This document shows, in pieces, positions 42,663 through 47,346 of a stretch of DNA of 55,853 nt. The position numbers were made by a program, and so were the translations under genes. Source of the DNA: Deltaproteobacteria bacterium (GTDB lineage: Bacteria; Desulfobacterota; Desulfobacteria; Desulfobacterales; Desulfosalsimonadaceae); contig JAADHK010000061.1 in assembly GCA_013151835.1 (NCBI GenBank), positions 1 through 55,853 of the forward strand, read 5' to 3'. Position 1 is the stretch's first letter. Every line of letters begins with the position of its first letter. The notes beneath the pieces were generated by a model. It made no database searches, was not told the DNA's origin, and worked only from the letters and a program-made list of their open reading frames with translations.

Positions 42663-43580
42663 TTACACCACCACTTCCAGCCCTTCCGATGCCAGGATAT
42701 TCTTACACCTTTCCACGGATTCGCGGCTCATCCATTCAGACAAAACTAAGTTGCCTGAAATTGGGAGTTTCATGCCAATTTTAGCGTTTTTTTCTATCCA
42801 CATGGGATGGTAGGCCATTATCTGAATTTTTTGAACATCCCGGCTGGCAAGCCATGAGCCGATGGCGCGTAGATTTCCATCAGTGTCGGTTATTCCGGGA
42901 ATCAGCGGAGTCCGGGCCAGCACGGGTACGCCGCCGTTCGCGTATTTCTTCTGGAGGGCGGAAAAATTTTTAAGGATTATAGAATTATCGGCACCGCAGT
43001 ATTTTTTATGAGCATCGGTATCCATGAGTTTGATATCAAAATAGATCATGTCAATATAAGGGTAGATATGCTTGTAAAATCGATTGATGTCAAACAGGCC
43101 GCAGGTTTCAAGAAGCACATGGATGTTATTTTTTTTTAATTTTCTCGCGGTCTGCCCGGCAAATTTCATGTTAAAGGCCGGTTCTCCGCCGGACAGGGTC
43201 ACCCCGCCATGCGATGTGTCGAAAAAGGGCTTGTCCACAATGACCCGGTCTAAAATTTCATCGTGGCTCATCTCCATTCCCACCCGTGTGAGCGCGCCGG
43301 ACGGACAAGTTTCCACGCATGCAAAACACAGATCGCAGGCATCCCGATCTATGAAAAACGGGTTGGTTTCGGCAATGGCCTTGTTCGGGCAGGTCGTGAT
43401 GCAGGTTTTACACCCGATGCAGACCTTTGAATCATAGGATATCTCGACTTGCGCCCGCTTGCTTTCCGGGTTGTGGCACCATTTGCAGTCAAGGGGGCAT
43501 CCCTTGAAAAATACGACCGAGCGGATTCCCGGGCCGTCGTCCAATGAGTTTCCCTTTATTTCAAGCACAAGCGGCTTCAT
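42663..43580 (-). CDS. Glycyl radical enzyme activase (radical SAM)
   Basis: A 305-residue PflA-type activating enzyme. The radical SAM cluster is bound by C28, C32 and C35 (KGCPLDCKWCHNPES). An inserted ferredoxin-like part carries two more Cys groups (CIGCKTCITTCPNKA and CDLCFACVETCPSGA), typical of activases for the dehydratase/lyase-type glycyl radical enzymes rather than PFL itself. GGVTLSGGEP binds SAM. It overlaps the enzyme gene by ATGA and should install the glycyl radical on its Gly995. Confidence 0.95.
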   Translation of the reverse strand: MKPLVLEIKGNSLDDGPGIRSVVFFKGCPLDCKWCHNPESKRAQVEISYDSKVCIGCKTCITTCPNKAIAETNPFFIDRDACDLCFACVETCPSGALTRVGMEMSHDEILDRVIVDKPFFDTSHGGVTLSGGEPAFNMKFAGQTARKLKKNNIHVLLETCGLFDINRFYKHIYPYIDMIYFDIKLMDTDAHKKYCGADNSIILKNFSALQKKYANGGVPVLARTPLIPGITDTDGNLRAIGSWLASRDVQKIQIMAYHPMWIEKNAKIGMKLPISGNLVLSEWMSRESVERCKNILASEGLEVVV

Positions 43581-46500
43581 AATCCATATTCCGTCCGTTC
43601 TATCAATTCCGTCTGGATATCGCGATTCAATGTGACAAAATATGCGTTATACCCTGAAATCCTCACCATGAGGCTCCGGTAGTTTTCCGGGTTTGCCATG
43701 GCGTCTTTAAGAGTTTCGGAGGTCACCACGTTAAACTGCATCTGCATGCCGCCCAGATTAAAATACGTCTTCACATAGGCGTGCATGTCGTCAATGGTTT
43801 TTTCGCGTGATTCTCCCGGTTTGGGGGAGAGTTTTACGTTAAACGCGATATTGTTATCCATGTTTTCAGGGTCAAGTCCGGCTACTGCTCGTATATTGTC
43901 GAGAAAATTTAAAGACGCGTTCGGGCTGGGCGTAAGGCCGGGCGTAAACGCCTTGGCCGAAAGCCGTCCCGAGGGGAGGGGGCCGGAAAGGGTCCCGTAG
44001 GCCACGTGTTGGGACATGGACCAGAAACCTACCGTGTACGGCCCGCCACGATAATTTAAATGTTTTTTGTAGCAGTCGTGAATTGTATTTGTCACACGAT
44101 TGGCCATGGCAACAGCCGAAGGGTCGCCCGATCCAAAGAGCGGAACCCGGTTCTTTACCATTGCAAGAAGCTGAGGGTCGTTTGCAAAATCAGTGTCCAC
44201 CACCTGTTTTAAACGTTCAAACGAGACAGCCTTGTCCTCGAACACGAGTTTTTTTATGACAAGAAGGGAATCGGTTACATCCACAAGCCCGATGTTGGAC
44301 GTGCCCGAAGAGTTATAAAGCGCGCCGCCGTGAACAAGGTCTTTGCCTTTTTTTATGCACCCGTCGATAACGGCCGAAAGATACGGGGTGGGTCTTATCT
44401 CCTGGTGTACCTTGCCGTAAAGGTTGTTTAACGCCACGGCCTGGTCGATGATAAACCCCTGTTGCGCGGCCCATGCCGTGTAAAACTCGTCGAAGGTTTT
44501 GAAATCCCCGTCTTCCACACGCCCGGTTTCAGGGCCGACCGCCCATCTCATTACGGGATGAGTTCCGTTGTGAAGGGCCATCTCCATTGCCGCAACAAGG
44601 TTTAATAGTATCGAGCCGGTATGTGCAAAATGGCGGCCCGAAAGGGTCGGCTCCACGCATCCGGTGGCAGACCAGTTTCTGATGTCGGCCTCGGGATACC
44701 CGTGCTGGCGCAGCGCCGCAAATACCGCCAAATCATTGTGCATGATCGGGGTTGCGGCCGTGATGAGATTGACTTCGCAGAGGCGTTTTAAATAATGGTC
44801 GCTGTTTTTTCCCGGGTGAAACCGGCAATTAACGTTGGCATCCCTTATGGCGAGCATTTCAGTGACCTTCAGGAGAACATAGGTCATGTCGTTTACGGCG
44901 TCTTTTCCATCCGGCGTAACCCCCCCCAAAGTGATCGCCTGGGTTGAGCCGGCCCCTCCGAACAGGTAATTTGCAATGTCCGGAAGCACCGGCACCTGGT
45001 CTGTCATGCGCATGTAAAAACAGCCGCAGATTTCAATGGCATGTTTGATATATTCCTCTTTTTCAGCGGATGTTAAAAGCGTTTTCATGTCCATTTCAAA
45101 ATAGGGCTGAAGCAATTGGTCGAGCCGTCCGATGGAAAGCCCGGTGTTGGTGTTTTCCATGTTGACCGCAATCCAGCAGATCCAGATGGCGTTTAATGCC
45201 TCATCAAGGCTTTGGGCCGGGCCTGACGGGACTTTTCCGCAGATCCGGGCCATGTGAATCAGTTCCGCTTTCCTTTTTTTATCTGTCTCCTTTGCCGCAA
45301 GCCGAAATGCGTTTTCAGACAAATGGGCCGCATAGGCGATGACGCCCTCAAGGCTTGTTTTCATTGCGGTAAGCGAATTTTTCTGATCCGGCGAAAGCCT
45401 GCTTTCCAAAAGCCTTGCATCGATATCGGCGATTATGCCGGCCAGCCCCTTTTCAAGCACCCGTTTAAAATCCGGGATGGTGTGCGATATTCCCACTGAT
45501 TTCCAGACAAAGTAGGCCACGAAACGCTCGTCTATGAGAAGGGGAAGGGGGGTATTGTATTTTTCTCGCATTACTTCCCGGAAATTCCTGTGCGTCCAAA
45601 AGGGAAAGACCTCGTGATGGAGAATGTCGGCGGTTTTGGGAGTACAGGCAAAAGGATTTAATACCCGCTTTTCGGAAGATTTGAGTTCTCCCCAGATCAT
45701 GGCGCCGTGGGCATCGGGAAAAAGAAGCACGCCAACCGGTTTTGTGGTGGTGCATCCGGCAAGAAGATCGTTTTTCCCTATGACGGGCGACTTGTTTTCC
45801 ATCAAATATTTAAACGACTCTGCCTGGCGCAGTTCCGGAACCCATGGCTTGCCGTTAACATCGGTTTCAAACCCGTTTTTCCTGAACCATCGGGTAAGAA
45901 GCAAAGGCCGTTCCGGGCAGACCTCGGGCTTTTGTGTAAAATGCCGGTCGAGACTTGCGGCAAGCCGGGGGAATTGTTCAATCCCGTAGGACGAAAGATA
46001 AGGATCAGTCAAAAATTTTACGCCTGCATCGATTCCGGGCGCTGCTTTCATCCGATAAGCCTTTCTTGCGGCCAGTTTCTCAGCAAGCTGCTTATTGCAC
46101 GGCCCCACGGCTTTTTTTCTCTCCCTGATATCGGCGGTGTTCGTCCTGTTTAACATGTGCTGGTGAATACGGCCGAGAACAAGGGAGAGATAGAAATTAA
46201 AAAGCTGCATAAAAACCATGTTGCCGTCTATTACAACCTGGTTTTTAAGTATATAATTTAAAAGTTCATTGGGGGTACTCATGGCCATTTTTTTAAGTAT
46301 GGATTCGTCCTTTAAGATTAAAGTAACATCAACATGATCGGAAATAGAGTCGGCAACGTTTACGTGTCCGTTGGAAAAGATGATGGATGCCGCAACGCTT
46401 TGGTCTTCAGTCCGTAATCCAACCGAAAAATTTATCCATCCATCGGCCCATTTGAGATATTTACGCAGTCCCGGCCGGAGGTTGAACTGCGTGGCAAGGC

Positions 46501-46636
46501 CCTTTAACGCAAGGCGGGTTGCGGTGTTCAGGAGAACATTTTTCATTTTCCCGAGCCCGTTTTTATGTTCGGGCGACCGGGTTTGTGTTACCAGTAAATT
46601 TGTGCACACTTGCTTTAGCGCCTCTTTTGTTTTCAT
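43577..46636 (-). CDS. Glycyl radical enzyme with N-terminal SCP2-like domain
   Basis: A 1019-residue protein. The C-terminal 800 or so residues are a PFL-like glycyl radical enzyme: catalytic Cys660 in NWSATGCVEPTLSGRH and radical Gly995 in MVRISGYNAYFVTLNRD. GCVEP points to the dehydratase/C-N or C-S lyase branch (glycerol or diol dehydratase, CutC-type, isethionate lyase), not to PFL. The extra N terminus (about 60-165: INFSVGLRTEDQ, SIIFSNGHVNVADS, LLNYILKNQVVIDGNM) resembles an SCP2 sterol/acyl carrier domain. AGGAGG precedes the ATG. The substrate is unknown; the extension hints at a hydrophobic substrate or CoA/lipid binding (inference). Confidence 0.9.
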   Translation of the reverse strand: MKTKEALKQVCTNLLVTQTRSPEHKNGLGKMKNVLLNTATRLALKGLATQFNLRPGLRKYLKWADGWINFSVGLRTEDQSVAASIIFSNGHVNVADSISDHVDVTLILKDESILKKMAMSTPNELLNYILKNQVVIDGNMVFMQLFNFYLSLVLGRIHQHMLNRTNTADIRERKKAVGPCNKQLAEKLAARKAYRMKAAPGIDAGVKFLTDPYLSSYGIEQFPRLAASLDRHFTQKPEVCPERPLLLTRWFRKNGFETDVNGKPWVPELRQAESFKYLMENKSPVIGKNDLLAGCTTTKPVGVLLFPDAHGAMIWGELKSSEKRVLNPFACTPKTADILHHEVFPFWTHRNFREVMREKYNTPLPLLIDERFVAYFVWKSVGISHTIPDFKRVLEKGLAGIIADIDARLLESRLSPDQKNSLTAMKTSLEGVIAYAAHLSENAFRLAAKETDKKRKAELIHMARICGKVPSGPAQSLDEALNAIWICWIAVNMENTNTGLSIGRLDQLLQPYFEMDMKTLLTSAEKEEYIKHAIEICGCFYMRMTDQVPVLPDIANYLFGGAGSTQAITLGGVTPDGKDAVNDMTYVLLKVTEMLAIRDANVNCRFHPGKNSDHYLKRLCEVNLITAATPIMHNDLAVFAALRQHGYPEADIRNWSATGCVEPTLSGRHFAHTGSILLNLVAAMEMALHNGTHPVMRWAVGPETGRVEDGDFKTFDEFYTAWAAQQGFIIDQAVALNNLYGKVHQEIRPTPYLSAVIDGCIKKGKDLVHGGALYNSSGTSNIGLVDVTDSLLVIKKLVFEDKAVSFERLKQVVDTDFANDPQLLAMVKNRVPLFGSGDPSAVAMANRVTNTIHDCYKKHLNYRGGPYTVGFWSMSQHVAYGTLSGPLPSGRLSAKAFTPGLTPSPNASLNFLDNIRAVAGLDPENMDNNIAFNVKLSPKPGESREKTIDDMHAYVKTYFNLGGMQMQFNVVTSETLKDAMANPENYRSLMVRISGYNAYFVTLNRDIQTELIERTEYGL

Positions 46637-47313
46637 AATATTCCTCCTGTTTTTGCGGAAAGGCTGTTTTTAATATACGGCGTCAGCCGTTCCAAAAGGG
46701 TCGATTCGATCATGGCCGTCACCTTTGCCACATCAGGTTCAACTTCCTGAAGAACACGGCTGTTCACAAGGGATACCAGCCCGTGGAGGGCGGTCCATAC
46801 GCTTATGGTGAGAGGCGCGGCGTCAGGGCCTGCTCCGGGTATCTTTGATAATACACGCCGGCAGGTTTCAGCTACTCTCATGGCGGTCTCTTTTTCGATC
46901 CTTGCCGCCGGTTCCAGTGGTGTGCCAAGGTAGTCCGCATATTTGGGAGTGTTTCTCGTGAACATGATCTCATACTGGTCCGGGTTTGACGTTCCGAAAT
47001 CGATGTATGCGCTTATCATTTTCTTTATGCCTGCAACCGGGTCCTTTTCTTTTTTTTCGATCTTGCGAAAGGTGCGGAAAAGTTTGGCAAATCCACGGGT
47101 CTGGATGGCAAGGTAAATTTCGTCCTTTTTCTTAAAATAATTGTAGATGTTTGCCGCCGTCATCCCGGTTTTTTTTGCGATTTTTCGCATGCTTAAACTT
47201 GCGAATCCCTCCTTGTAGAGGATTTCAAGCGCGGCATCGAGAATATTTTTCCTCACCTGGTCCACTGCTTCCTGTGGGCGTGCGGGTTTTGGCATGGTTT
47301 TTCCTTTTTCCAT
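46633..47313 (-). CDS. TetR-family regulator of the glycyl radical operon
   Basis: A 226-residue repressor. The N-terminal helix-turn-helix has ILDAALEILYKEGFASLSMR then KIAKKTGMTAANIYNYFKKK; the C-terminal part (about 90-225) is a ligand-binding helical domain resembling TetR_C groups (IMFTRNTPKYADYLG). It overlaps the enzyme gene by four bases (ATGA), so regulator, enzyme and activase form one transcript. A 27-bp palindrome lies 7 bp upstream. It probably senses the substrate of the enzyme. A start at the seventh codon is also possible. Confidence 0.93.
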   Translation of the reverse strand: MEKGKTMPKPARPQEAVDQVRKNILDAALEILYKEGFASLSMRKIAKKTGMTAANIYNYFKKKDEIYLAIQTRGFAKLFRTFRKIEKKEKDPVAGIKKMISAYIDFGTSNPDQYEIMFTRNTPKYADYLGTPLEPAARIEKETAMRVAETCRRVLSKIPGAGPDAAPLTISVWTALHGLVSLVNSRVLQEVEPDVAKVTAMIESTLLERLTPYIKNSLSAKTGGIL

Positions 47314-47319
47314 GATGAA

Positions 47320-47346
47320 TGAACACCGTTAAATTAACGCTGTTCA
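47320..47346. promoter_or_regulatory. 27-bp palindromic operator candidate for the TetR regulator
   Basis: TGAACACCGTTAA and TTAACGCTGTTCA are inverted copies (12 of 13 positions) about a single central A at 47333. It begins 7 bp upstream of the tetR start codon and lies in the divergent gap with the protease gene. Size, symmetry and position match TetR-family operators, so autoregulation is likely and control of the protease possible. Confidence 0.75.

Follow-up and report, generated by a model that had tools for sequence, protein, structure and literature searches.

A glycyl radical enzyme subfamily with a predicted SCP2-like domain as fused or separate partner

Glycyl radical enzymes (GREs) are among the main tools with which anaerobes break difficult bonds; those GRE eliminases that have been characterised act, to our knowledge, on small water-soluble substrates. 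The B12-independent glycerol/diol dehydratases (PDB 1r8w and 5i2a) share the PFL-like barrel, the Cys-x-Glu motif, His164 and the glycine radical with the GRE encoded in the window (the whole stretch of 55,853 nucleotides analysed here). They differ from the subfamily of the window GRE, which lacks His281 and Asp447, has an invariant Trp for Tyr640 and an SCP2 partner, and forms a separate clade. The top PDB sequence match of the window GRE is choline TMA-lyase CutC (9f3w, 380 bits).

The best structural match of its SCP2-like domain is to the alkylsulfatases Pisa1/SdsA1 (Z 13.4), which we take to combine an enzyme with an SCP2-like domain for alkyl substrates; their catalytic domain is presumably a metallo-beta-lactamase-type sulfatase, unlike the GRE. 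The SCP2 domain of UbiJ serves hydrophobic quinone precursors, and the same has been proposed for UbiT; the pathway of UbiT is O2-independent and includes Fe-S enzymes, and ubiT also occurs fused to ubiU (PMC6747719). UbiJ and UbiT resemble the window system in that the SCP2 partner is either separate or fused (PMC6747719), whereas UbiT is partnered by the hydroxylase pair UbiU-UbiV and the window SCP2 part by a GRE. The limonene GRE (PMC12583861) and the enzymes of a review on alkanes (PMC3653055) are different from the window GRE.

The TetR-linked locus and its palindrome

The locus consists of the following features:

42663-43580, minus strand: activase, 305 residues (ORF list), a radical SAM protein with 4Fe-4S ferredoxin-type motifs (TIGR02494, 276.7 bits, cut-off 174.35)
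43577-46636, minus strand: GRE, the SCP2-GRE fusion protein, 1019 residues (ORF list)
46166-46546, minus strand: SCP2-like domain of the GRE, residues about 31-157 (predicted model)
43994-45937, minus strand: PFL-like barrel (PF02901), residues 234-881, 531.6 bits, above cut-off
43634-43948, minus strand: glycine radical domain (PF01228), residues 897-1001, 83.9 bits, above cut-off
46633-47313, minus strand: TetR-family regulator, 226 residues (PF00440, PF13305); start may be 47295
47320-47346, no strand assigned: 27-bp palindromic operator, TGAACACCGTTAA-A-TTAACGCTGTTCA, probably read by the local TetR

ATGA overlaps occur at both the TetR/GRE and the GRE/activase junctions. Coordinates and sequence thus agree with a sequence-only reading of the window, which had placed the three genes, joined in this way, behind the palindrome; the DNA bears out the self-contained module that it proposed insofar as the TetR-linked genes are compactly arranged and have a putative operator of their own. 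The activase scores above the TIGR02494 cut-off, which we used as the mark of a cognate activase for PFL-like GREs. For the regulator, Met7 (47295) is a possible start, and a purine-rich stretch lies 5' of that ATG. The genome of the window holds a second fused SCP2-GRE copy.

The palindrome has 13-nt arms, 92% complementary, around a 1-nt spacer. Its arms pair at 12 of 13 positions; when the upstream region was shuffled 20 times, no palindrome exceeded 10 of 13. A search of 36 genomes with the consensus AACRNYGTTANNNTAACRNYGTT, drawn partly from the sites that it then finds, gave 14 sites, all of which adjoin a TetR of the window regulator's family; the reversed control gave none. A perfect site was present in only 12 of the 36 genomes, and the N-domain in 23. 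Many palindromes in the 43 upstream regions, some of them repeated, were no better than their own shuffles. On this sequence pattern the 27-bp palindrome is a conserved candidate operator, through which TetR would control the module. When we searched the window's genome for a wider regulon, allowing at most 2 mismatches, we found the module's own site and one between unrelated genes; a control pattern gave the same number of sites.

The predicted SCP2-like domain

The SCP2 profile PF02036 matched residues 65-147 of the full-length GRE (E=0.013, 16.3 bits) and, when residues 1-225 alone were searched, reached E=0.0012 and 19.6 bits, in both cases below the Pfam gathering score of 21.3. Because the domain lies under this cut-off, it could escape routine annotation. 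An AlphaFold2 model built for residues 1-225 (mean pLDDT 69) matched UbiJ-SCP2 in Foldseek (E 1.9e-6), and VIA aligned it with alkylsulfatase 4axh (Z 13.4, 2.2 A, 105 residues) and with 8af3 (Z 12.8, 2.4 A, 112 residues). As predicted by these models, the N-terminal domain of the GRE is an SCP2-like fold. The sequence-only reading had likened the N terminus to SCP2 and proposed a structure prediction as a check; the model bears it out at Z 12-13 despite the sub-cut-off Pfam score, and the fold is not unrelated to SCP2. Predicted models of the separate SCP2 proteins of split forms are likewise SCP2-like, and the fused and separate parts are homologous (hhalign probability 98.9, E 2.8e-17). PF02036 matches 8 of 17 separate homologues (best E 9.2e-6), and profile searches with fused or split SCP2 parts returned no SCP2 entries among PDB sequences; the SCP2 signal came from fold comparison and, weakly, from Pfam.

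These comparisons also bear on the possibility that the protein is a biosynthetic enzyme that modifies membrane lipids by acting in situ on their chains, in the manner of cyclopropane fatty acid (CFA) synthase, which also has an N-terminal domain. Both VIA lists include CFA synthase 7qos (Z 7.6 over 82 residues at 2.8 A and Z 6.4 over 80 residues at 3.1 A), and 2 of the 17 split SCP2s match DUF7884, which we take to be the CFA-synthase N-terminal domain. Z values below 8 are weak, however, and catabolism is better suited by the TetR linkage, by the two to five matches held by 14 of the 39 genomes with a match (see below) and by the patchy presence of the subfamily. We consider a lipid-modifying enzyme quite unlikely.

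A subfamily with fused and split forms

A GRE-core query against 194 genomes of the window's order gave 60 matches of at least 597 bits in 39 genomes; a first look scored at most five candidates per genome, which makes its counts lower bounds, and the genome sets were even draws. An SCP2-like domain is fused to 46 of the 60 GREs, another 12 have a separate small SCP2 gene and 2 are cut by contig ends. The fusion noticed in the window is thus not a one-off. The SCP2 gene lies directly behind the GRE in 11 of the 12 split cases, the remaining pair being parted by contig ends. An alignment query gave 88 relatives, and we retained the 80 best, representing 78 loci; a scan of the named genomes with the single N-terminal sequence gave no match. 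Hosts include Desulfosudis and other Desulfobacterales, and relatives also occur in records labelled Myxococcota, Spirochaetes, Mogibacterium, Caldilineales and others.

Sequences were labelled fused, split or other by presence of the SCP2 part. Five rows, L151, L228, L236, L237 and L238, received the split label manually; it was later borne out for L151, L236 and L237 and, by coordinates, for L238, and the SCP2 gene of L228 lies on another contig (L229). For comparison we used 27 other GRE alignment rows (26 genes), mostly from one phylum, and three PDB sequences. In trees of the GRE part, built by quick searches with SH-aLRT as the sole support measure from 145 sequences thinned to 72, leaving out rows with a core below 700 residues, the fused forms make one clade (100) and the split forms another (99 and 97). 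These are sister clades, apart from other sampled GREs. On the sequence evidence, the putative SCP2-like domain is a constant partner of the whole subfamily, fused or split.

The possibility raised at the outset, that the enzyme would cluster with a characterised group, does not fit these trees, in which the window GRE belongs to its own clade; it also scores below the cut-offs of all 13 NCBIfam models that it matched. The equivalog models for CutC, HypD, HpsG, HpfG, PFL and the indoleacetate and HPA decarboxylases are among them, HypD being the best (404.7 against 1100); for CutC (TIGR04394) the score is 383 bits against 1050. Hosts such as Desulfosudis and other Desulfobacterales, and a score of 330 bits, near the dehydratases, for 8iof (deposited as benzylsuccinate synthase alpha subunit), could point to hydrocarbon activation by fumarate addition of the alkyl- or benzylsuccinate synthase type. 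The two other chains deposited under that name, MasD (9o8u, 226 bits) and TutD (4pkc, 169 bits), however, score below glycerol dehydratase (362) and CutC (380), 8iof groups with L201, a row over the CutC cut-off (97, a long-branch join), away from the subfamily clade, and the ORF list shows no further subunit gene in the window operon. We regard fumarate addition as highly improbable.

In most loci that we read, the GRE gene is followed by the split SCP2 gene and then by the activase gene, separated by short gaps or overlapping. This placement would be apt for an assembly factor, and would suit a structural, activase-docking or radical-shielding module on an ordinary small-molecule eliminase. 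Other sampled GREs, such as L201, have no SCP2 part, which indicates that it is not generally needed by GREs; most of the PDB matches are to lipid carriers or to domains of alkyl-chain enzymes, roles that we assume partly from general knowledge. A structural role appears unlikely to us.

Catalytic residues and a proposed reaction

We compared residues across 99 fused, 19 split and the 27 other rows (all positions on the minus strand):

45482-45484: His385, aligned with glycerol dehydratase His164; His in 99/99 fused, 19/19 split and 17/27 other rows
44657-44659: Cys660, thiyl radical residue, in GCVEP; invariant in the 118 and also in the 27 other rows
44651-44653: Glu662, proposed general base; 118/118, and 26/27 other rows
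44021-44023: Trp872, aligned with glycerol dehydratase Tyr640; 99/99 fused, 19/19 split, 0/27 other
43652-43654: Gly995, radical glycine, in RISGYNAYF; invariant in the 118 and also in the 27 other rows

The equivalents of glycerol dehydratase Cys433, Glu435, His164 and Gly763 are thus invariant in all fused and split sequences, and the alignment confirms the catalytic residues reported from the sequence alone, Cys660 in GCVEP and Gly995 in RISGYNAYF. Because the other sampled GREs conserve Cys, Glu and Gly equally well, these residues alone indicate neither a lipid substrate nor a particular elimination. Trp872 is, on this alignment, apparently subfamily-specific among sampled GREs, and the residue aligned with His385 is Asp in L201. 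His281 and Asp447, presumably substrate-site residues of glycerol dehydratase, are replaced by Thr498 and Gly674 in the window GRE and kept in 0/118 subfamily sequences; their loss is common in other GREs too (retained in 1/27 and 7/27 rows).

Extended SDRs (10 loci), classical SDRs, aldo/keto reductases and one FA_hydroxylase recur beside the subfamily. These carbonyl- or lipid-type neighbours speak for the reaction proposed below. We found no single activity common to the neighbours, which vary across loci; 36 of 89 loci have a same-strand run without any gene of at least 100 residues besides GRE, activase and TetR, and an MFS transporter, which would suit a soluble substrate, is present in at least three operons (L074, L077, L094).

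From the residues we infer elimination chemistry, and from fold and context a hydrophobic substrate. We suggest, with somewhat better than even confidence, a TetR-controlled anaerobic module in which the SCP2-like part binds the hydrophobic substrate and the GRE carries out a dehydratase-like elimination. The radical SAM activase would generate the radical on Gly995, which would pass to Cys660, and the Cys660 thiyl radical would take a hydrogen from the hydroxyl-bearing carbon. Glu662 would remove the hydroxyl proton and His385 would assist the departure of the leaving group, most probably water, so that a carbonyl results. The substrate may be drawn from the membrane or from a pool of lipids, bound through its hydrophobic portion by the SCP2-like domain and handed to the GRE barrel; in relatives a separate small SCP2 protein would do the same. 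Our guess at the most plausible substrate class is long-chain vicinal diols or compounds resembling mono-alkyl/acylglycerols. The lipid, sterol or acyl-CoA substrate, the membrane placement and the inducible catabolic role put forward in the sequence-only reading are likewise conjectural.

A more far-reaching version, which we hold as a long shot, is a GRE subfamily devoted to lipids, in which SCP2 lifts long-chain vicinal diols or 1-O-alkyl/acylglycerols from membranes for dehydration by the GRE. If true, anaerobes would gain a radical route into long-chain diol and alkyl- or acylglycerol lipids, and the product from a 1-O-alkylglycerol could break down, freeing the alkyl chain, which would amount to anaerobic ether-lipid cleavage. 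A subfamily that is common in the window's order and coupled to a lipid-carrier fold would extend GRE chemistry to lipid substrates, and its fused and split forms are clear targets for biochemistry.

The TetR-linked module and possible activase sharing

Open reading frames and sequence confirm that the window encodes three genes joined by an ATGA overlap at each of the TetR/glycyl radical enzyme (GRE) and GRE/activase junctions, together with a 27-bp palindrome:

42663-43580, minus strand: radical SAM activase gene
43577-46636, minus strand: GRE gene, 1019 residues
46633-47313, minus strand: TetR gene
47320-47346: palindrome, 27 bp

The sequence-only reading had taken this arrangement for a self-contained module. 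We derived an operator consensus, AACRNYGTTANNNTAACRNYGTT, from the upstream regions of related TetR genes; built partly from sites later found, so that their recovery is partly circular, it recurs 14 times, in 12 of 36 genomes, each time beside a TetR of the window's TetR family. Its reversed control gave no sites in the 36 genomes. The finding that no perfect site lies beside any other gene in these genomes is not circular, and this confinement to TetRs of one family supports a self-contained unit, in which we infer repression and induction by TetR.

The window's genome has two fused copies, GREs with an SCP2-like N-terminal domain (N-domain), on contigs C138 and C32. Within the 16 kb read around the second (contig C32, L038:7634-10606, plus strand, 990 aa) there is neither an activase nor a TetR of this family, and this enzyme may depend on activation in trans, possibly with the window's activase. 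At loci L081 and L161, two or three SCP2-GRE paralogues surround a single activase and a single TetR, suggesting that one activase can serve several GREs. Contig C74 of the same genome (L041:5925-9281, minus strand) encodes a 1118-aa protein with a radical SAM activase-like part ahead of a GRE in a single chain; an assembly error is unlikely, because the protein recurs near full length, at 92-93% identity, in relatives G030 and G031.

Predicted fold of the N-terminal domain

In the window GRE, Pfam places a PFL-like barrel at residues 234-881 and a glycine radical domain at 897-1001, and its SCP2 match falls below threshold (16.3 bits versus a cut-off of 21.3). An AlphaFold2 model of residues 1-225, built from 13 sequences, has a mean pLDDT of 69, with blocks of ten in residues 41-110 averaging 82-89. 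Foldseek matched it to UbiJ-SCP2 (E 1.9e-6), and VIA to alkylsulfatase 4axh (Z 13.4, 2.2 A, 105 residues) and the human SCP2-like entries 8af3, 1ikt, 6z1w and 6z1x (Z 12.3-12.8, 2.4-2.5 A, 111-112 residues), with non-SCP2 entries scoring Z 7.6 at most. These matches of a predicted model to solved SCP2 domains bear out the proposed SCP2-like N terminus, the predicted fold applying to residues about 31-157. The small SCP2-like proteins encoded separately beside other GREs (the split form) are homologous to the fused domain (hhalign E 2.8e-17); 8 of 17 have a Pfam SCP2 match (best E 9.2e-6), and their predicted model likewise aligns with SCP2 structures, at best with Z 13.4 (2.3 A over 107 residues).

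Full-text searches of mainly open-access literature on GREs with SCP2 or sterol carrier protein yielded a single fungal genomics paper. In function, the nearest precedent we found is UbiT: this small SCP2 protein acts in O2-independent ubiquinone synthesis, and a fused form of it exists (PMC6747719).

Active site and genomic neighbours

All 99 fused and 19 split sequences keep the residues matching glycerol dehydratase Cys433, Glu435, His164 and Gly763, which favors the earlier suggestion of intact chemistry. These 118 sequences have A/T/V/S/I/M for His281 and N/G/A/S for Asp447, which we take to be the diol-holding places, and all have Trp for Tyr640. Among 27 outgroup GRE rows, Cys, Glu and Gly are also near-invariant, His281 is kept in one and Asp447 in seven, and none has the Trp. 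With the catalytic equivalents kept and His281 and Asp447 replaced, the elimination machinery is retained and the window GRE is no glycerol dehydratase; small side chains at these two positions would fit a larger substrate, without naming which.

We surveyed 89 non-redundant loci, many of them truncated at contig ends: 53 have an activase within six genes of the GRE, 37 a TetR and 14 an SDR cluster. Extended SDRs with 3Beta_HSD matches occur in 10 of these loci (40 chosen neighbours scanned), and the four of them scanned with NCBIfam match HpnA or OleD best, far below cut-off; L163 has an extended and a classical SDR, the same two being one fused protein in L128. Neighbours elsewhere include AMP-binding acyl-CoA ligases, aldo/keto reductases, Zn-ADHs, FA_hydroxylase, BKACE, CoA transferase, and FGGY kinase with DAO oxidase (presumably glycerol kinase and glycerol-3-phosphate dehydrogenase), but at least three SCP2-GRE operons contain MFS transporters. 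Such neighbours are in keeping with a carbonyl product and, in some loci, with a lipid context, leaving the substrate unfixed. A lipid substrate and dehydratase chemistry are inferred. Behind GRE and activase, L137:13946-17008 and L148:11027-14170 encode a protein of 1020-1047 aa containing a class III aminotransferase region (Pfam scan of L137 only).

Fused and split forms of one subfamily

The N-domain was matched in 23 of 36 genomes of the window's family and in 39 of 194 drawn from its order, the latter by open frame fused in 29 and stand-alone in 13, three of them having both. In a named-genome scan, the best 80 of 88 relatives represent 78 loci, with titles (mostly MAGs, some possibly misbinned) naming Desulfobacterales, Smithella, SAR324, Spirochaetes, Mogibacterium, Myxococcota and others. 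The GRE core, an independent query for the split form, gave at least 60 matches at 597 bits or more in the same 194 genomes. Of the 60 listed, 46 have the N-domain in the same frame (by coordinates), two are fragments truncated by contig ends, and the remaining 12, frames of 814-881 aa, lack it (597-696 bits at 40-44% identity); the GRE ranked next scores 461 bits. The genomes of all 12 also encode a stand-alone SCP2-like protein: in 11 its gene comes immediately after the GRE on the same strand, and in G182 the two genes sit at the termini of separate contigs. In G047, the 13th stand-alone genome, the SCP2 gene follows a GRE whose reading frame is broken in two.

A 297-genome phylum sample added 13 genomes with a stand-alone match (weak fragments G289:C89 and G351:C44 left out), of which 12, all but G367, were examined. 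An intact GRE adjoins it in nine (G226, G240, G277, G312, G340, G352, G364, G449 and G475; G312 and G340 from coordinates only) and a broken one in G366; G391 has a GRE remnant only, and in G227 the SCP2 gene adjoins an activase without a GRE. The SCP2 gene is still open near broken split-type GREs or a remnant at L155:1847-4331, L239:4450-7038 and L240:3301-3519. An activase follows the split SCP2 gene in L152, L153, L155-L158, L226, L227, L229, L231, L234, L235, L237, L238 and L239 (in L157: GRE, 17 bp, SCP2, 4-bp overlap, activase) and does not adjoin it in L150, L151, L154, L236 and L242; L225 and L241 end too early to show this. A protein of ~360 aa starting MQ(I/L)D(F/M)H lies beside the split genes in L153, L155, L226, L236, L237, L238 and L242.

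On a GRE-core tree with the N-domain removed (37 fused, 12 split, 23 other GREs), the fused and split forms each make one clade (support 100 and 99), together set apart from the other 23 (support 100). Adding glycerol dehydratase, archaeal PFL2 and 8iof left the same clades (support 100 and 97). The window GRE also falls below cut-off in all 13 NCBIfam models matched; neither these models nor the trees place it within a characterised group. Fusion in one clade and gene linkage in its sister is a classical sign of joint function, and here it argues that the SCP2 part and the GRE cooperate. The association first noticed in the window is real and extends wider than claimed, to a separate GRE subfamily whose SCP2-like partner is constant.
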